Source: Sinomonas mesophila
GTDB lineage: Bacteria > Actinomycetota > Actinomycetes > Actinomycetales > Micrococcaceae
Assembly: GCF_001999765.1 (NCBI RefSeq)
Contig: NZ_KV908322.1
Location: 426,889-466,177, forward strand
Direction of reading: 5' to 3'
Length of the DNA stretch: 39,289 nt
Position numbers and translations under genes: made by a program. Every line of letters begins with the position of its first letter. Position 1 is the first letter of the stretch. Under the pieces are notes generated by a model. It worked only from the letters and a program-made list of their open reading frames with translations. It searched no databases and had not been told where the DNA came from. Positions 31,113 to 38,048 of the stretch are shown here, one piece after another.

Positions 31113-31506
31113 GGTCTGTAGGTTGGTACCGCGCCGCGCCGAGGGCAAGGCCCGGGGAGGGCCGCCTTGTAGTCTCTTAGCCTGCTCGCCGGGTTCTTTG
31201 TCGCGCTCCTATTCACTGGTTCGGACGCCTTGGTCGCCTGGCTCGCTACTCGTTCGCGAGGGCGACCTCCGCGGTCCGGCCAGCATGTCGGTGAATGTCG
31301 GGCGCCGAGTTCGACGCCGGGGGCGATTCGGCGGGGCAACAGGGGAGCAGTCCAGACTGTCGTATTCGCACCTGCTGCGAAGGCATCCTCTACTGGCACC
31401 CCTGCGTCAGGCTTGGACGTATTCAGCCCCGACGAGGGTAGGCGGAGTCCGAGGACAGCTAGGCCGACAGACGGAGACGATACGCCGTGGGTGGCAGGAT
31501 TCGACT
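31113..31506. other. Intergenic region without recognisable gene
   Basis: These 394 bases lie between the divergent membrane protein gene and the small gene at 31507. Composition is mixed and several frames are open by chance. No motif-bearing protein, tRNA or clear hairpin was found. Confidence 0.5.
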
Positions 31507-31848
31507 ATGGAGACGGTCACCCTTTGGCGCCCTACCGGTCCGGAGGAACTCGCGCTTGTCGAGGCCTCGGGCTGGCGCGAATGGCCGCCGAGATTGCCGG
31601 ACCAGCCGATCTTCTATCCAGTCCTCAACGAGGAATACGCGACGATGATCGCTCGCGATTGGAACGTCAGGGCCAGCGGAGCCGGCTTCGTCACCCGGTT
31701 CGAGGTTCGCAAGGACTTTCTTGACCGCTACCAGGTTCAGCAGGCTGGCGGAAAGACCATTCTGGAGTACTGGATTCCGGCCGAGGATCTGCCCGAGCTC
31801 AATGCGAACATCGTCGGGATCATCGAGGTCGTTGCCGAGTACCGGTAG
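31507..31848 (+). CDS. Conserved small protein ('ADP-ribosylation/crystallin J1'-type annotation)
   Basis: A 113-residue cytoplasmic protein beginning METVTLWRPTGPEEL and containing GWREWPPRLPDQPIFYPVLNEEYA, DWNV, FVTRFEV and YWIPAEDLPELNANIVGIIEV (conserved blocks given separately). Proteins with exactly this layout are widespread in bacteria and usually carry the inherited label 'ADP-ribosylation/crystallin J1'. No catalytic motif supports that name, and the function is unknown. The ATG has no strong Shine-Dalgarno. It is the last chromosomal-looking gene before the dif-like site and the integrated element. Confidence 0.75.
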   Translation: METVTLWRPTGPEELALVEASGWREWPPRLPDQPIFYPVLNEEYATMIARDWNVRASGAGFVTRFEVRKDFLDRYQVQQAGGKTILEYWIPAEDLPELNANIVGIIEVVAEYR

Positions 31849-32035: not shown

Positions 32036-32063
32036 ACCTGACATAATGTCGATTATCGGCGGT
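32036..32063 (-). other. dif: dif-like Xer recombination site
   Basis: Read on the minus strand, the 28 bases consist of a left arm ACCGCCGATAA, a 6-base centre TCGACA and a right arm TTATGTCAGGT. This is the 11-6-11 layout of bacterial dif sites, with inner ATAA and TTAT(GT) ends bound by XerC and XerD. The right arm shares TTATGT with the E. coli and B. subtilis dif arms, and the whole closely resembles actinobacterial dif sites (CCGATAAT...CATTATGTCA). XerCD act here with FtsK to resolve chromosome dimers. It could be the chromosomal dif itself or a mimic carried by a mobile element; a recombinase unit begins about 190 bases away. No second full copy is in the window. Confidence 0.7.
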
Positions 32064-32116
32064 TAAGGAGCGGGAGTTGCATTAGGTGCGAGAACTGCCG
32101 CCTCATCGCGATTCAG
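32060..32116 (+). repeat. Direct repeat copy 1, abutting the dif-like site
   Basis: This 57-base segment matches 37596-37653 in the same orientation. Identical blocks include GAGTTGCAT, GGTGCGAGAAC, GCCG and TCGCGATT, with few substitutions and one single-base gap between 32074 and 32116. Similarity is weaker at 32060-32073. It starts in the edge of the dif-like site and precedes the recombinase genes by about 130 bases. Confidence 0.8.
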
Positions 32117-32224
32117 GCATTTTCGCAGGTCAGAAGCCGATTGTGCACGAACGTAGACTCTGCGCAGACAGCCTGGTTTTGGCGAGCTTGCCCGGTCGAC
32201 TGTAGGTTTCCTGCATCTAATGCA
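32078..32224. repeat. Inverted 8-mers upstream of the recombinase
   Basis: TGCATTAG at 32078-32085 (inside the direct repeat) and CTAATGCA at 32217-32224 are exact inverted copies. The second is part of a local palindrome, TGCAT-CTA-ATGCA, at 32212-32224, just before the recombinase gene. These are candidate recombinase or HTH-protein binding sites. The remaining bases of 31849-32249 show no gene. Confidence 0.4.
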
Positions 32225-32249
32225 TGTTTCCATGGTTTAGGGGGCGGGA

Positions 32250-33377
32250 ATGGACGGTGCTGTTCCGGGCGCAGTGCCGCGATTGCTCAGCGATCCTGGC
32301 GTCGGGCTGTTCCGCGCCGACGAGCGCGTCTTCGAGATGATGCTGGAGCGCTGGCGCGCGCAGATGCTGGCCCGCGGGCTGACCACCGGGACCATCAAGA
32401 GCCGGTGCGGCGTGGTGGGTAGGTTCCAGGAGTTCACCGGCGAGTTCCCGTGGCAGTGGCGTCCGGTGGACGTCGAGGAGTTCCTGGCCGAGCTGCGCTC
32501 CGGGCCGAAGCCGGTCAGCCTGACCACGCTGCGCTCGTACAGCAACGCCGTGGCGATGTTCTGCGCCTACCTGACCCATCCGGCCTACAGATGGGGCGAG
32601 TTCTGCGAACGCACCTTCGGAGACATCCCCACCCAGATCTGCTTCGAGTGGAACACGCCCCGGCACACCACGGACGACGCCGTGCCGCCGAAGAAGCGTG
32701 CATTCACCGTGCAGGAGCTGCGGCGGCTCTTCGACCACCAGGACGACCTCGTAGACCGAGAATACGCCGCCGGGAGCAAGCGGTGGCTGCACCTGCTGCG
32801 GGACTCGATCGCGTTCAAGGTCTGCTACGCCGACGGGCTGCGGCGCCGGGAACTGACCATGCTCGAGCTCGAGGACTTCGGCCCGAACCCGCACGTGCCC
32901 GACTACGGGCGCTTCGGCGCCATCCAGGTCCGCTGGGCCAAGGGCACCGCCGGCTCCGGCCCGAGGCGCCGGACCGTGCTGACCGTGCCCGAGTTCGACT
33001 GGGTCGTGGCCCTGCTCGCGGAGTGGACCCGGGGCGGGATGCGGGAGCGCTTCGCCACCGCAGAACGGTCCTCCGCGCTCTGGCCGAGCGAGCGGTCCGG
33101 CCGGGTGGCCGTGGGCAGCCTCGGAGACGCCTTCGCCGCGGCCCGCGACGCCGTCGGGCTCCCGAAGGAGCTCGGCCTGCACTGCCTGCGCCACTCCTAC
33201 GTCACCCACCTGATCGAGGCCGGCTACGACCCCGCATTCGTCCAGACCCAGGTCGGGCACGCCTACGCCTCCACCACCGGGCTGTACACCTCGGTATCGT
33301 CGGACTTCAAGCAGAAGACCGTGCAGAAGATGATCGCCCGGCGCATCGCCAAGCCCGAGGAGGAATCCAGTGCCTGA
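32250..33377 (+). CDS. Tyrosine recombinase/integrase
   Basis: A 375-residue site-specific recombinase. The N-terminal core-binding domain (about residues 25-125; GLTTGTIKSRCGVVGRFQEF) precedes the catalytic domain. All key residues are present: Arg198 in ADGLRRREL, His311 and Arg314 in HCLRHS, His337 in VGHAYAS and the nucleophile Tyr346 in TTGLYTSV. It is therefore predicted to be active in strand exchange. The ATG has AGGGGG upstream. The stop overlaps the HTH gene by eight bases, so the unit is translationally coupled. It lies right of a dif-like site and a direct repeat, which suggests site-specific integration there. Confidence 0.92.
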   Translation: MDGAVPGAVPRLLSDPGVGLFRADERVFEMMLERWRAQMLARGLTTGTIKSRCGVVGRFQEFTGEFPWQWRPVDVEEFLAELRSGPKPVSLTTLRSYSNAVAMFCAYLTHPAYRWGEFCERTFGDIPTQICFEWNTPRHTTDDAVPPKKRAFTVQELRRLFDHQDDLVDREYAAGSKRWLHLLRDSIAFKVCYADGLRRRELTMLELEDFGPNPHVPDYGRFGAIQVRWAKGTAGSGPRRRTVLTVPEFDWVVALLAEWTRGGMRERFATAERSSALWPSERSGRVAVGSLGDAFAAARDAVGLPKELGLHCLRHSYVTHLIEAGYDPAFVQTQVGHAYASTTGLYTSVSSDFKQKTVQKMIARRIAKPEEESSA

Positions 33378-33723
33378 ACAACGCAGGATCGGCTACCACT
33401 GGAACCTGCGCGCCCTGATGGCCCAGCGCAACCTCTGGAAGACCACCGAGCTGATGCCCCTGCTCCGCTCCCGCGGGATCAACCTCTCCGAGAGCCAGGT
33501 CTACCGCCTCGTCACCAGCACCCCCGAGCGCATCCCTGCACGGACGTTCGCGGCCCTGTGCGACATCCTCGACTGCACTCCGAACGACCTCTTCGAGCCC
33601 TTCGTGGAAATGCGCGCCGCCTCAACTGCCAACGCGCCCAAGCGCAGCGAGGACCTCGGCATCCAGCCCCGCAGCCCCATCGCCAAACGCATCCGGCTCG
33701 TGACACCGGACGAGGATGAGTAG
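33370..33723 (+). CDS. Small Cro/C1-type HTH DNA-binding protein
   Basis: A 117-residue protein. An HTH_26/XRE-like fold covers residues ~10-80: WNLRALMAQRNLWKTTELMPLL, SESQVYRLVTSTPERIPARTFAAL and CDILDCTPNDLFEP. The ~35-residue C-terminal tail is polar and unrelated. It is coupled to both neighbours by eight-base overlaps (GTG start inside the recombinase gene, stop inside the third gene). It may act as a recombination directionality/architectural factor or as autorepressor; neither is shown by sequence alone. Confidence 0.82.
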   Translation: MPEQRRIGYHWNLRALMAQRNLWKTTELMPLLRSRGINLSESQVYRLVTSTPERIPARTFAALCDILDCTPNDLFEPFVEMRAASTANAPKRSEDLGIQPRSPIAKRIRLVTPDEDE

Positions 33724-35170
33724 GCCTCGCAAGGCCGAGGACCCCACCCGCTGGCCGGTCCCCTGCTCACGCTGCGGCCAGCACCACCAGACCGTCGCCA
33801 CCTGGCCGGACGGCGGTGTCTGCGGTTACTGCTACCAACAGGCCAAACGCACCCGCGGGACCTGCGCCTGTGGCCACGAAGGCATCCTGCCCGGCCTGAC
33901 CGACGGTGCACCGGCATGCCGCGCCTGCTCCGGGGTGAAGCTCAACATCGACTGCAAATCCTGCGGCGCCGAGGACGAGCTCCAGAGCGGTGCCCGATGC
34001 TGGAGCTGCGTCCTCGGAGACACCGTCGACAGCCTCCTCGCCAACCCGTCGAGCGGCAGCATCCCGCCCGAGCTCGTCCCGCTCCCAGCGGCCCTGAAGT
34101 CGATGAAGCGAGCCAACAGCGGCCTTACCTGGATCCGCCAGAAGCACGTCACCGAGTTCCTCCAACGGCTCGCCCACACCCCCGCCGTCACCCACGAGAC
34201 CCTCGACCAGTTGCCGAACTCACGCACCCGCGAATACGTCAGGGGGCTGCTCGTCGAACACGGCGTCATCCCCCGCCGCGACGAGCTCCGCGCCCGCTAC
34301 AACCACTGGGCCGAAGAATCCCTCGAGCGCATGAACGACCCGGGAAACCGTGAGACCGTCCGCCGCTACATCCGCTGGCACCACCAGCGCCGGATGAACC
34401 AGATGGACGAAGTCGGCCAGGGCACCTTCCAGCGCAGCAAGCAGACCGTCACCGTTGCCATCGACTTCCTGAACTGGCTCACAGACCGTGGCGCCGGCCT
34501 CGCAGAACTCGAACAGGCGCACCTCGACGCATGGCAGGCCGAAGGTCCCACAACCCGGGAGATCGCCGACCGGTTCCTCAAATGGGCCATCAAGACCAAG
34601 GCCGCTCCCTCGGGCCTGAAGATGGCACCACATCGGCGCGGAACCAGCGCCAGACTCAGCGCCGCAGCCCAAGAGGCGGCCGTCCAGCAAGTGGTCCACA
34701 CTGACCAGCTGCCTGCCCGGGATCGGGCTGCGGCGATCCTCGTCGTCGTCTTCGGCCAGCAGATTGAAGACGTCGCCGCCCTGAGCTGGAACGACGTCAC
34801 GGTCACCGACGAACTGGTCACCATCCGGCTCGGCAGCATCGAGATCGCCCTGCCCGACCCGCTCGACGGCCCTTGGCGGCGCCTGGCATCCGATCCCGGA
34901 CACGGCCTCACCGCAGCGCACCCCAACAGCAGCTGGGTCTTCCGCGGCGTCTCCCCCGGCCGGCACATCAACCCCAGCCACCTGCGCGAAAGGCTCCGGA
35001 CCGTCTTCAGCACCCGCGCAGCCCGGCTCGGGACCCTCCACGAGCTCACCAAGCTCGCACCCCTGCCCCTCATCGCCGAAACCCTCGGCTACTCCCCGGC
35101 CACCATCGAACGCCACGCCACCGACTCGGCAGCCGCCTACGCCCAGTACATCGCTGCGGTGAGAACATGA
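33716..35170 (+). CDS. Triple zinc-ribbon protein with recombinase-like C-terminal region
   Basis: A 484-residue protein. Twelve cysteines in the first 100 residues form three regular modules: C17/C20 with C36/C39, C50/C52 with C68/C71, and C80/C83 with C95/C98. A helical core-binding-like region follows (~130-320). The last ~160 residues resemble a tyrosine recombinase catalytic domain, but key positions are changed: the box I Arg is Gln349 (FGQQIEDVAALSWND), the LGH His is Tyr459, and the expected nucleophile region reads IERHAT with His467. It is thus probably a non-catalytic DNA-binding partner of the upstream recombinase. The C-terminus could alternatively be read as an HTH. It is coupled to the HTH gene by an 8-base overlap. 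A decayed partial copy lies at 37675-38048. Confidence 0.75.
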   Translation: MSRPRKAEDPTRWPVPCSRCGQHHQTVATWPDGGVCGYCYQQAKRTRGTCACGHEGILPGLTDGAPACRACSGVKLNIDCKSCGAEDELQSGARCWSCVLGDTVDSLLANPSSGSIPPELVPLPAALKSMKRANSGLTWIRQKHVTEFLQRLAHTPAVTHETLDQLPNSRTREYVRGLLVEHGVIPRRDELRARYNHWAEESLERMNDPGNRETVRRYIRWHHQRRMNQMDEVGQGTFQRSKQTVTVAIDFLNWLTDRGAGLAELEQAHLDAWQAEGPTTREIADRFLKWAIKTKAAPSGLKMAPHRRGTSARLSAAAQEAAVQQVVHTDQLPARDRAAAILVVVFGQQIEDVAALSWNDVTVTDELVTIRLGSIEIALPDPLDGPWRRLASDPGHGLTAAHPNSSWVFRGVSPGRHINPSHLRERLRTVFSTRAARLGTLHELTKLAPLPLIAETLGYSPATIERHATDSAAAYAQYIAAVRT

Positions 35171-35252
35171 CCGGCGGCGCAGACAGGGTCCGGGCATGTA
35201 TTTCAGGGGCAGACCGTTGGGGTCGCATCCTGAGTCGACATGAGGGGAAATG

Positions 35253-36098
35253 ATGAGGGATCGCGAGCAGGCCGGGGAGCTTGTTGTGACCAGGCCCTGG
35301 ACAGCCCAATCGGCACGGATCTTCGAGGAGGGACGCGCCCACCGCCTAGTGCTGAATTGTGCGCTCGGATTCAACGAACCGTCGCTCGAGTTTCTCCGGG
35401 GGCTTCCGATCCGCGAGTTGCAGATCATTGATCGGCGCCTGACAACCCTTGAGCCCATCTACTCGCTTGCCCCGACCCTGGAGTCGCTCCATGTGACCAC
35501 CCATCCTGACCTGAAGATCAGGCTCACCGAGCTGCCAAGGCTCCATAGCCTCGGGGCGTTCTGGGCACAGGTAAAGGACACCATCGGCCAAATTGCTGGG
35601 CTCGAGCACCTGTTCCTGCTGACATACACGCCCGACGACTTGGAGCCGCTGTCTTCGCACGTGGCCCTGGAAACCCTCCGGATGAAGGACAGGCCGAAAC
35701 TGAGCTCCCTGGCTGGCCTGTCTCAATTCCCCAAGCTTGACCAACTCGGCATCTACTTGGCCTCTCGGCTTAAAGACATATCTGCACTGCGCAGCCGATC
35801 CGCGATCCGCGAGCTCGAGCTGGAATCCTGCAAGAAGCTGAAGAAGATCGATGACCTCGCAGAGTGCGTGGGACTGCGGCGGCTCAATCTCGCCGACTGC
35901 GGCGACATCGAATCTCTAGGTCCCTTGAGAGGGCTGACCCAGCTGGAGGAGCTCTACCTCTACGAATCGACCAAGATCTTGGACCAGGACCTCTCGCCCA
36001 TAGCAGGCCTTCCGAGACTCAGGATCCTTCGAATGATGAACCGCCGTGGATACAACCCGTCCGTGCATGAACTCCAAGCGCGGATGGACGGGACCTGA
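35253..36098 (+). CDS. Leucine-rich-repeat protein
   Basis: A 281-residue protein. From about residue 50 to 265 it is built of irregular ~22-residue leucine-rich repeats (LPIRELQII, LESLHVTTHPDL, LEHLFLLTY, LETLRMKDRPKLSSLAGL, IRELELESCKKLKKIDDL, LRRLNLADCGDIESLGPL, LEELYLYESTKI, LRILRMMN). There is no signal peptide or membrane helix, so it is cytoplasmic. ATG 35253 is preferred over the adjacent ATG 35250 because GAGGGG at 35242-35247 is better spaced. Base composition is lower in GC than the chromosome, consistent with acquired cargo of the integrated element. The binding partner is unknown; the C-terminal end may be rearranged (see the fragment at 36071-36241). Confidence 0.7.
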   Translation: MRDREQAGELVVTRPWTAQSARIFEEGRAHRLVLNCALGFNEPSLEFLRGLPIRELQIIDRRLTTLEPIYSLAPTLESLHVTTHPDLKIRLTELPRLHSLGAFWAQVKDTIGQIAGLEHLFLLTYTPDDLEPLSSHVALETLRMKDRPKLSSLAGLSQFPKLDQLGIYLASRLKDISALRSRSAIRELELESCKKLKKIDDLAECVGLRRLNLADCGDIESLGPLRGLTQLEELYLYESTKILDQDLSPIAGLPRLRILRMMNRRGYNPSVHELQARMDGT

Positions 36099-36241
36099 AC
36101 CCTCCTCGCCAGACGAGCTCCAAGAGCCACCAACTCCCGGCTCACGAATTAAGTGGGACGGGCGAGACCGACTACGGATCACCAGACGTTCTGGAGTTCT
36201 ACGACATGTCTGGTCTATGGAGGGAAACTTCGGCCGGATGA
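36071..36241 (+). pseudogene. Possible 3' fragment of a gene lacking its 5' end
   Basis: An open frame with no usable start runs from 36071 to a TGA at 36239-36241. Its last ~26 codons (TGETDYGSPDVLEFYDMSG, then LWRETSAG) have high third-position GC and protein-like composition. The stop overlaps the ATG of the next gene as ATGA, the usual coupling signal. This suggests the remnant of a gene that once preceded the small acidic protein and whose 5' part was lost at the junction with the LRR gene, or a frameshift in the LRR gene. It may also be chance. Confidence 0.3.
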
Positions 36242-36579
36242 GTTCGAACCCACCACAAATCATCTGGCGGACGGATGCCCCGACAGGAATCACCGACTTG
36301 ATCAGCAAAGGAGCCGAAGTGATCCGGATCTCCAAGCGGTTCCAAGAAGCCGCGCAGAGGATCTTGGATGGCGACGAATCCAAGATCGCTGCTGCAGCGT
36401 TGGAAGGTGTCCTGCTCGATGAGCACCTGGGCGAAGAAGACATGGAAGATCTACTCTTCGCCCTCTCGCTCTACGCTCCAGGCGACGGCCCCGAGTACTA
36501 CGACGGCCCCCAACTTCGAAGAACCCTCAGGGAAACCCTCAGCAACGTCCTCCCCCCAAGAGAGGAAGAACAGCCCTAA
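36238..36579 (+). CDS. Small acidic hypothetical protein
   Basis: A 113-residue protein of unknown family, beginning MSSNPPQIIWRTDAP. The centre is helical (VIRISKRFQEAAQRILDGDESKI) and the C-terminal half acidic (DEHLGEEDMEDLLFALSLYAPGDGPEYYDG), ending in a Pro/Glu tail. ATG 36238 is chosen because it overlaps an upstream stop as ATGA; ATG 36217 and a longer frame from 36046 inside the LRR gene are alternatives. Small acidic proteins coupled to a preceding gene are often immunity or antitoxin proteins, but nothing here proves that. Confidence 0.5.
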   Translation: MSSNPPQIIWRTDAPTGITDLISKGAEVIRISKRFQEAAQRILDGDESKIAAAALEGVLLDEHLGEEDMEDLLFALSLYAPGDGPEYYDGPQLRRTLRETLSNVLPPREEEQP

Positions 36580-36660
36580 CCGCAGAAAGCCGGGAAGGGT
36601 CACCCGAACGGTCCGACTCGTCCCACATCAACACGTCTCGCTGCCACTCAAAGAACGGGA

Positions 36661-36807
36661 GTTGCGTTTGACCCACTGGTCCTGACTGAGTCCTCCAGCC
36701 GATTGGCCTTGGTAGACGCCGAGAACGGCCGCTCGCTGGCTGGGGCCGAGATTGCAGGCTCGCTGGGCCTCGGAGTCAGGACGCTCTACCGGTGGCTTGC
36801 CCTATAG
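36661..36807 (+). pseudogene. Transposase HTH remnant
   Basis: The frame reads VAFDPLVLTESSSRLALVD, then AENGRSLAGAEIAGSLGLG and VRTLYRWLAL before a TAG. This is the N-terminal helix-turn-helix of an IS-type transposase (pattern GRSxAEIAxSLGVxxxTLYRWL). The catalytic part is absent, and flanking sequence does not continue the gene, so it is a decayed insertion-sequence relic. The 10-mer CGGGAGTTGC at 36656-36665 just before it also occurs at 32071-32080 in the direct repeat. Confidence 0.5.
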
Positions 36808-36846
36808 AGACGCACCGAGGATACGACCGATGCCCTCCTTGCGGGT

Positions 36847-37149
36847 TTAGCGATCGAACTCCCAGTCCTCAAGCTGTGTGTGCACAGGGATCAGATTGAT
36901 CACGAGGTCGGTGCGACCTTCAACCTCGACGAGTTGGGTGCGGCATGCCTCAGCGACCTGACGGGAGGAGAACGCTCCGATCTGGCCACCGCTGTTGCCT
37001 TCTGCGTCCTCCCACTCGACGGCATATACAGCCTCCGGGCTGCGGTATCCCCTTGGAAGCTTCATGAACGGGCTGCGCCAAGTTCGGAAGTGCCATCGCC
37101 CTATACGGAGACGGATGTGGCGAAGGTCTTGAATTTCGAATTCGAACAC
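36847..37149 (-). CDS. Small hypothetical protein
   Basis: A 100-residue protein of unknown function. The region from MKLPRGYRSPEAVYAVEWED through GAFSSRQVAEACRTQL to TDLVINLIPVHTQLEDWEF reads as a compact alpha/beta domain with good codon structure on this strand. Start is uncertain: GTG 37149 has AGGA about 8 bases upstream, whereas ATG 37065 would give a 72-residue form starting at MKLPRGY. It is the only minus-strand gene among the cargo. No similarity was recognised. Confidence 0.5.
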   Translation of the reverse strand: MFEFEIQDLRHIRLRIGRWHFRTWRSPFMKLPRGYRSPEAVYAVEWEDAEGNSGGQIGAFSSRQVAEACRTQLVEVEGRTDLVINLIPVHTQLEDWEFDR

Positions 37150-37595
37150 ACTGAAATCCTATTGGTGGTCAGGGGCGATTTCTTGTTTCGCTGCCGACGC
37201 TTTCACTCGACACGGCACCAGCGGCAGGCTGGACGGATGGCCAGAGGGCACCACTCTCGCGATGAGGAAGCTCCTCGGCGGGAGGACCATGAAGATGACT
37301 GCAGGGTCTGCCCGGCTAAGTCCGAAAATCAGGGCGTATCGGAGACGAGTACTGACGGTGGAGGCTTGGGGCCCCTGTGAGAACAGGGCCCCCGGACTCG
37401 GCCTGACTCGAACAGGCTGCCACCCTCTCCATCATGGGTGCGGTCATCTGGAGCCAGCACACCTTGAGCGAGGACAGGATCATGGACTCACACTTGCAGC
37501 GGCGAAGCGAGTCGGCGGGCTTCAGATACCCCGCATCACATCCGGGCCTGGTGCACAAAGCCTTCTACTCCCGTGCCAGGAATACCCGTGCATGC
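37150..37595. other. Cargo region without recognisable gene
   Basis: This stretch has lower GC than the chromosome and no convincing ORF. An imperfect GGGG-rich hairpin with a GAGA loop lies at 37368-37393. A small hairpin at 37401-37417 (GCCTG/CAGGC around a 7-base loop) resembles a tRNA T-arm on the minus strand, but no full tRNA could be built around it. The region is probably scrambled mobile DNA. Confidence 0.4.
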
Positions 37596-37653
37596 CAGTT
37601 AGCCAACGCGAGTTGCATCTGGTGCGAGAACCGCCGTCTCGTCGCGATTTCAG
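37596..37653 (+). repeat. Direct repeat copy 2
   Basis: This is the second copy of the segment at 32060-32116, same orientation, exactly 5536 bases away over most of its length. Here it is not preceded by a dif core (no ATAAT) and leads within about 20 bases into the decayed third recombinase-unit gene. Together the two copies bracket the intact recombinase unit and its cargo. Confidence 0.8.
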
Positions 37654-37674
37654 CACACCAGGCACGCTGCGCCT

Positions 37675-38048
37675 GTCACCGAGCTCCTCCAACGGCTCGT
37701 CATCAACGCAGGCTCGGAACCAGCCTGAGGCTAGCGCCTCACCCCAAGAGGCGGCGTCCAGTGAGTGGTCCACGCTGGCTAGCTGCCTGTCGTGGATCGG
37801 GCTGAGGTGATCCTCGTCGTCCCATTCGGCCAGCAGATCGAAGAAGTGACCGCGCTGGACCTGACGATGTCAGCGTCACCGAGGAACTAGTCACTATACG
37901 GCTAGGCAGCATCGAGATCGCACTGCCCGACCCGCTCGACGGCCCCTGGCGCCATGTGGCATCCGATCCTGGCCATAGCCTGACGGCAGCACATCCCATG
38001 GGTCTACCGCGGCGTCTCCCCCGCCGGCACATCAACCCAGCCACCTGA
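37675..38048 (+). pseudogene. Decayed, internally deleted copy of the triple zinc-ribbon recombinase-like gene
   Basis: The DNA matches two parts of the intact gene at 33716-35170. 37675-37712 matches the stretch near 34148-34172, and from about 37711 it continues with the stretch from about 34635 to 34990, so ~460 bases are deleted. Very similar blocks include CAGCATCGAGATCGC, CTGCCCGACCCGCTCGACGG and CCCAAGAGGCGG. Small indels and stops break the frame. No trace of the recombinase or HTH genes precedes it. It is the relic of an older or tandem copy of the same element. Confidence 0.85.

Follow-up and report, generated by a model that had tools for sequence, protein, structure and literature searches.

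The window, by which we mean the whole 39,289-nt stretch of Sinomonas mesophila DNA that was analysed, contains a 28-bp dif site with small elements docked on both of its sides. Four elements lie to the right of dif, the side of the XerC arm, and one element together with the end of an older one lies to the left, the side of the XerD arm. The first element on the right encodes a trio of genes, for which the labels recA, hth and recB were coined here (recA and recB are unrelated to the repair protein RecA). The features are as follows.

31357..31390, minus strand: head of an older left-side element, GAGGATGCC-TTCGCAGCAGGTGCGAA, cut off from dif and resembling the dif-adjoining head in locus L047
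31391..32034, minus strand: left-side (XerD-side) element, 644 bp, no recombinase genes; head from 32034 (..CTCTGCGTATCTCATCGGATGAATC), tail ..GTGCCAGTA ending at 31391
31507..31848, plus strand: cargo open reading frame of the left-side element, 113 aa, no Pfam match
32036..32063, minus strand: chromosomal dif, 28 bp; XerC arm ACCGCCGATAA (32063-32053), centre TCGACA, XerD arm TTATGTCAGGT (32046-32036)
32065..36149, plus strand: right-side (XerC-side) element 1, the trio and a leucine-rich-repeat gene; ends defined from relatives
32070-32101: inverted repeat at the head of element 1, GCGGGAGT..ACTGCCGC
32250..33377, plus strand: recA, Xer-like tyrosine recombinase, 375 aa, Phage_integrase domain
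33370..33723, plus strand: hth, Cro/C1-type (HTH_26) DNA-binding protein, 117 aa
33716..35170, plus strand: recB, large partner, 484 aa, N-terminal CxxC clusters
35250..36098, plus strand: cargo of element 1, leucine-rich-repeat protein, 282 aa
36132-36149: tail of element 1, AACTCCCGGCTCACGAAT, the end of the tail being lost
36150..36649, plus strand: right-side element 2, GACGAGT subtype by its tail (GACTCGTCCCACATCAACACGTCTCGCTGCCACTC, 36615-36649), no recombinase left
36650..37600, plus strand: right-side element 3, CGGGAGT subtype; head AAAGAACGGGAGTTGCG, tail CTACTCCCGTGCCAGGAATACCCGTGCATGCCAGTT to 37600
37601..38047, plus strand: right-side element 4, decayed; head AGCCAACGCGAGTTGCATC.., recB remnant to 38047

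RecA finds XerC as its best NCBIfam model, with a score far under the cut-off of that model, and its relatives in the PDB are XerD, XerC-like and XerA proteins and an integron integrase. The closest relative in a named species is that of Sinomonas cellulolyticus (91% identity). Residues R198, K231, H311, R314, H337 and Y346 are unchanged across nine sequences; going by the motif, we take these to be the catalytic set of a tyrosine recombinase (Arg-Lys-His/Arg-His-Tyr). RecB shows a weak similarity to phrog_216 (integrase; E 0.0016). It has no Pfam match and no PDB relative in a profile search up to E = 1, the canonical catalytic arginines were not seen at the expected positions, and a profile comparison of RecA with RecB was negative. 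Its AlphaFold model is poor (pLDDT 48). Element 1, with part of its tail missing, may be immobile.

The left-side element is recognised through its relatives. Its head and the adjoining dif match L042 at 87% over 60 nt, and its tail resembles the ends of L125 and L099. Cargo varies between elements: in the window it is a leucine-rich-repeat protein in one case and the 113-aa protein in another, and the gene for the latter is found again ahead of recA in L074, from an Arthrobacter bin (86% nucleotide identity over 188 nt).

A direct repeat, 32062-32113 and 37598-37649, had been taken for the edges of a single element. The repeat exists; its copies, however, are not the terminal repeats of one element but the heads of two, the first and the fourth in one stack, and its reading as an att repeat was rejected. 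A tail for element 4 was searched for and none was found. Stacks of this kind recur elsewhere. Among 25 distinct tails, two of which end their contigs, 12 of the 23 with following sequence run, by our own reading, straight into another head. Thus, a newly arriving element takes the place next to dif, ahead of its predecessor. Stacking on the left was seen in L064 and in the window; left-side tails, when searched for, were clear in L064, L123, L125 and L099 and nowhere else except the window itself.

Identity of the dif site

The original prediction described the minus strand of 32036-32063 as ACCGCCGATAA-TCGACA-TTATGTCAGGT, two 11-bp arms around a 6-bp centre, and the window reads the same when inspected again. 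The XerD arm (TTATGT..) is named after the Acinetobacter consensus in PMC10132070. A loose arm pattern has two overlapping matches in the window, both corresponding to this site, where 0.23 are expected; five of 100 shuffled sequences also reach two. In the source genome (4.01 Mb in 47 contigs) the 28-mer has a single match at up to three mismatches. Its core, ACATAATGTCGATTATCGG, is present with no more than three mismatches in 57 of a set of 58 genomes and, within the family, in 148 of 149, the source genome being counted in both sets; the reversed pattern, used as a control, gives 0-1 matches per genome. When the centre is ignored, the exact arms ACATAAN6TTATCGG are likewise found in 148 of the 149, against one control match in the whole table. 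The sole family genome lacking an arm-perfect site, G168, has ACATAATATAGATTATAGG, with three mismatches. In G017 and G178 the arm-matching site listed is not the chromosomal one.

As the source genome is fragmented, the position of dif relative to dnaA was measured in seven relatives whose listed dif shares a contig with dnaA, each contig being taken as circular; an eighth genome searched, G059, is without a listed dif position. The distance amounts to 0.49-0.53 of the chromosome in six of the seven and to 0.35 in G089. GC skew, sampled as 20 segments of 20 kb from one relative (G002), gave no clear switch. The genes to the left of dif, encoding a YCII-domain protein and a sigma factor (28.7-30.4 kb in the window), are kept in whole or in part at 10 of 14 loci of the same genus. 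Among 15 same-genus genomes, a total that counts the source, five have dif with no recognisable element end in flanks read by eye. The relatives without an element, the conserved genes on the left and the place opposite dnaA support the first of two options offered by the original prediction, namely that this is the chromosome's own dif with an element docked alongside. On these sequence comparisons, the site at 32036-32063 is the native dif of the chromosome and not a mimic.

Many of the empty dif sites (L174-L213) are flanked, by eye, by sequence like GGAAGGGGC on the right and like GGGGGA on the left; these stretches are possibly orientation signals for FtsK.

Spacing, sides and spread of the family

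The recombinase sample comprised the matches listed with E of about 1e-49 or better in the 149 family genomes (all but G070:C139), to which were added 21 loci from genomes of named species, obtained by a pattern scan whose reach is limited to close relatives, and 11 plasmid records out of 190. At 84 recombinase places the distance to the nearest upstream arm-matching site was measured. Six loci (G089, G161, G017, G070, G131 and G097) were chosen once their adjacency had been seen, and the sample behind the counts is therefore not random.

Thirty-six places have at least 60% identity to the recA of the window (L063 and L094 being one locus counted twice). Of these, 28 were testable in having a start codon and at least 230 bp of upstream sequence, while five have no start and three have too little upstream sequence. 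At 25 of the 28, ACATAAN6TTATCGG lies in one orientation 173-191 bp before the start of recA, with at most one mismatch in the 13 arm positions. The exceptions are L065, which has no site, L073, with three mismatches at the same place, and L076, with a perfect site at 358 bp. Control windows of 650 bp downstream of 83 places never do better than four mismatches in 13. Of the 48 more distantly related places, 16 show the site turned round relative to these, at 221-311 bp, which puts those elements on the XerD side. Of the other distant places, L061 is a decayed right-side copy and L060 and L122 have the site further away. In L060, beside a left-side trio, two dif-like sites (2284-2302 and 2603-2621) lie about 320 bp apart, as if a small recombinase-less element sat between them.

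The two sides are also separated in a tree of 71 of the 84 recombinases, from which duplicates and copies shorter than 280 residues to the first stop were left out. All 22 right-docking rows fall in one clade of 27 (support 100/100), and the 14 left-side rows are scattered over several clades within a group of 27. A further 26 of the 71 rows have no dif-like site, one of them lying behind a run of N and some having short upstream sequence. Related trios away from dif-like sites are seen in L093, L103, L111-L114 and other rows, and divergent recA copies in L064 and L071.

A pattern search that starts from dif instead of recA is free of the bias from the six loci chosen for their visible adjacency. 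With one mismatch tolerated, dif followed by a CGGGAG head occurs in 41 of 395 family genomes, where the reversed control has no match, and in eight of 198 at the level of the order; given that tolerance, some of the weakest rows may be chance matches. Within the genus, six of 15 genomes, the source counted, have the trio beside dif, and 10 of 15 have the trio or a recognisable head in flanks read by eye. Heads were further surveyed at 45 family dif sites taken in list order (40 new and five earlier; G178 and G017 omitted). An automatic test found a right-hand head at four (0.03 expected) and a left palindrome at seven (1.06 expected), three of these seven being unrelated hairpins; by eye, about 12 of the 45 have a left head. 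Most of the 45 sites have no recognisable head and dif-like sites also stand alone, so docking is common but not general. Comparison of these sequences shows docking at dif to be common to a family of elements, two-sided and repeated, which the original prediction had not noticed.

Taken together, we put at about 0.8 the probability that dif is flanked by a family of small site-specific mobile elements which possess their own recombinase, insert just outside Xer sites and stack in a last-in-first-out order. That the family is mobile is something we infer from its sequences. An alternative is that the trio is a domesticated helper, kept by Xer sites to assist dimer resolution or replicon partition. 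Adjacency to such sites on chromosomes and plasmids alike, and catalytic residues of RecA that are invariant in the nine sequences, would suit a helper of this kind. Against it, stacks of decayed copies and cargo genes resemble a mobile element, as does the spread of the trio over several families and plasmids, and its occurrence is patchy even among close relatives of the same genus. Domestication is therefore judged improbable.

Element ends and target sites

Two contigs, L066 and L069, are apparently one element long and expose both ends. Heads of the common subtype beside dif read AAnnACGGGAGT-16 nt-ACTCCCGT and the corresponding tails CTACTCCCGnCCCAnGAATACCCGTGCATGCCAGTT. Right-side copies with both ends visible measure about 3.2-6.9 kb, the longest, L088, holding an IS21 copy. 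Every intact member of the family encodes the trio: a Xer-like tyrosine recombinase, the small HTH protein and the large partner. The subtypes of the two ends vary together: CGGGAGT heads go with ACTCCCG tails and GACGAGT heads with ACTCGTC tails (L045, L087 and L088), as would be expected of binding sites for the element's own proteins. The spacer of the tail begins with CAGTT in 21, CAGTC in three and CACTC in one of the 25 distinct tails; on the dif side the corresponding bases are mostly CGnnn.

One full pair of filled and empty sites is available, L079 and L020. The empty site reads TTATCGG-CGTTA/TGAGTGCGGG, and the filled one TTATCGG-CGTTA/AAATAACGGGAG at one end of the element and GCATGC-CAGTT/TGAGTGCCTG at the other (slash, junction). 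Counted from the inner edge of the XerC arm, the junction comes after 12 nt, one base beyond the 11-bp arm; dif is left whole, with neither loss nor duplication of target bases. The pair can be aligned well along its right flanks, and on the left poorly past about 20 nt. In the genome from which the empty site comes (G022), no close recA was found. A partial second pair, the plasmid copy L083 against L122, concerns the right flank only and has one base unexplained. A plasmid search with the flanks of L083 for a clean pair returned the query alone for the left flank and the query with three weak matches for the right. Left-side heads (TTATGTCAAGTA and variants) appear to start at the mirror position, 12 nt away from the XerD arm as counted from its inner edge, and it is there that the left-side junction would lie; a filled and empty pair for the left side was sought and none was found.

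These ends bear on the second option of the original prediction, in which the element carries a dif mimic and exploits the host XerCD. Insertion would then be at the centre of dif and would duplicate the site. The location at dif is what such an element would have, extra dif-like sites do occur in many genomes, and known integrative elements that exploit Xer (IMEXs), such as LME-1, insert in this way through the host enzymes (PMC9765430). The prediction of a mimic was not borne out: no dif-like arms are found by the 25 distinct tails, the best match within 60 nt having four mismatches in 13. Together with a junction outside the centre of dif, this argues against hijacking of XerCD. Moreover, the element encodes a recombinase of its own, and the source genome has a single such site. 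We regard this option as very improbable.

The targets extend to plasmids. All nine circular plasmids examined that have a recA of at least 62% identity have a site with the same arms upstream of it (eight perfect, one with one mismatch), 195-208 bp from site start to start codon, each with its own six-base centre. No such site accompanies two plasmid recA genes of 48% identity, one from a linear Streptomyces plasmid. In the Kocuria rosea plasmids L084 and L091, divergent trios flank one dif-like site on both sides. It might be supposed from the constant distance in these nine plasmids, and from the paired trios of Kocuria, that the dif-like site belongs to the element, travels with the trio and seeds copies of dif on plasmids. 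The six-base centre, however, differs among the plasmids and from the chromosome, and the chromosomal site exists without an element. Furthermore, all of 20 additional dif-like sites taken from other genomes lack a recA relative nearby, over about 5 kb or as far as the contig reaches; such sites thus exist on their own and serve as targets, and it is hardly to be expected that the element brings them.

Chance, in which the elements passively accumulate in a terminus region and are close to dif by accident, has practically no probability left: terminus regions are generally insertion-tolerant, but the spacing varies within 18 bp in 25 of 28 copies, holds on plasmids too and is accompanied by empty control windows, so that accidental closeness is already refuted by the fixed spacing.

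Sites with the chromosomal arms and often a different six-base centre were seen on Micrococcaceae and Rhodococcus plasmids and other contigs (L083-L091 and L134-L153). The differing centres could keep plasmid Xer-like sites from recombining with the chromosomal dif.

Proposed mechanism and comparison with known systems

A mechanism may be proposed for the mobile family as follows. The element would form a circle in which its tail (..GCATGCCAGTT) meets its head (AAnnACGGGAGT..). With HTH and RecB as helpers, RecA would recognise a single Xer arm, in dif or in a dif-like site of a plasmid, as one half of the target; the circle would then enter one base past the 11 bp of that arm, at 12 nt counted from its inner edge. 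The head would thereby land next to an intact dif and the former flank of dif would be shifted behind the tail. The XerC arm would be read by one recombinase clade, giving right-side elements as in the window, and the XerD arm by others, giving left-side elements. As dif is left whole each time, further elements can insert between it and the previous one, leading to last-in-first-out stacks. Comparison of sequences shows the identity of the site, the fixed spacing, the right-side junction, the orientation, the stacking order and the ends that change together; the circular intermediate, the proteins required and the reading of the arm by RecA itself are probable by analogy with the biology of tyrosine recombinases.

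The ordered stacks are a record of successive insertions at one place. dif is needed for the resolution of chromosome dimers and must stay intact. The elements apparently use dif and plasmid Xer sites as a harmless address, and so could hop between chromosome and plasmid, damaging neither. A recombinase that adds DNA beside an undisturbed dif might be a useful tool, and the elements might serve as a marker for plasmid Xer sites in Actinomycetota.

In the literature searched, with most subscription papers and all preprints outside its scope, no report was found of tyrosine-recombinase elements that dock beside dif. The closest known systems are the dif hunters of the IS1202/ISAjo2 type, the IMEXs and the SE, GInt and Tn554 elements. 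The ISAjo2 group of the IS1202 family has been named ‘dif site hunters’, as its members target both chromosomal dif and plasmid pdif sites; they insert in a fixed orientation, 5 bp from the XerC arm, and leave the site intact (PMC10132070). They are described there as having a DDE (TnsB-like) transposase, a length of about 1.5 kb, a 5-bp target duplication and a distribution confined to Acinetobacter. On this description, the window family is like them in having its own enzyme, in targeting dif and plasmid dif-like sites, in its fixed orientation and in sparing the site. Unlike them, it has a tyrosine recombinase (Phage_integrase/Xer-like) and two partners in place of a DDE transposase, it shows no target duplication in the one full pair of filled and empty sites, and, whereas they are found in Acinetobacter on the XerC side, it occurs in Actinomycetota, with separate clades for each side and in stacks. 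A second paper on them is that of Siguier et al. 2023 (Plasmid).

The ‘res site hunters’ of the Tn5053 type transpose into the res sites of resolvases by a DDE-type system; they likewise aim at sites of site-specific resolution, but by DDE-type transposition.

IMEXs (LME-1, GGI, CTXphi and others) integrate at dif, use the host Xer proteins and carry a dif mimic, and LME-1 and GGI leave a second, modified dif (PMC9765430). The window family shares the location at dif and, compared with that description, differs in its own recombinase, its arm-free tails and its junction outside dif.

SEs have four core genes, intA-tfp-intB-srap, IntA and IntB both being of the RHRY type; in the survey of their authors they occur in Gammaproteobacteria only, and a 6-bp fingerprint from the left flank is copied to attR (PMC10214605, a text in which the word dif is absent). 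Resemblances to what is described there are several adjacent genes of the tyrosine-recombinase type, target specificity, an operon at one end and a short spacer by the half-site of the target. The window family is set apart from the SEs, by their description, in having three genes, recA-hth-recB, of which the second encodes an HTH_26 protein. L083, a short copy, has only about 110 bp between the end of recB and that of the tail, too little for a fourth gene like that of the SEs described. The tail spacer is also nearly constant, and is not copied from the donor flank as in the SE description.

GInts (ginABCD), several of which are at ssb (PMC5385486), are, together with RIT elements and Tn554, likewise multi-recombinase and site-selective. 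By the available descriptions, these three are set apart from the window family by other targets and other gene sets. We know of no HTH gene between two recombinase-like genes in GInts, RIT elements or Tn554. The comparison with ISAjo2, IMEX and the SE, GInt, RIT and Tn554 elements thus gives a family that behaves like a dif hunter with an enzyme resembling the recombinases of the Xer or SE type, and it fits neither completely as SEs, GInts and dif hunters are described. Tentatively, and at somewhat below even odds, it would form a distinct class of element, in which Xer-like recombinases read the outside of a single Xer arm, perhaps docking on dif-bound XerCD. Chromosomes and plasmids with a Xer site would in that case be two-sided, self-regenerating landing ports, at which elements pile up with their cargo in ordered stacks. 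A classification of tyrosine recombinases is given in PMC8138268. In Bacillus subtilis, the terminus hot spots of Tn916 do not coincide with dif, according to PMC12084037.

A last observation concerns G135, in which a second dif-like site flanked by element ends (C1:3651667, L104) shares a contig with the main dif (C1:1468155), at a great distance from it; this second site is perhaps an integrated plasmid.
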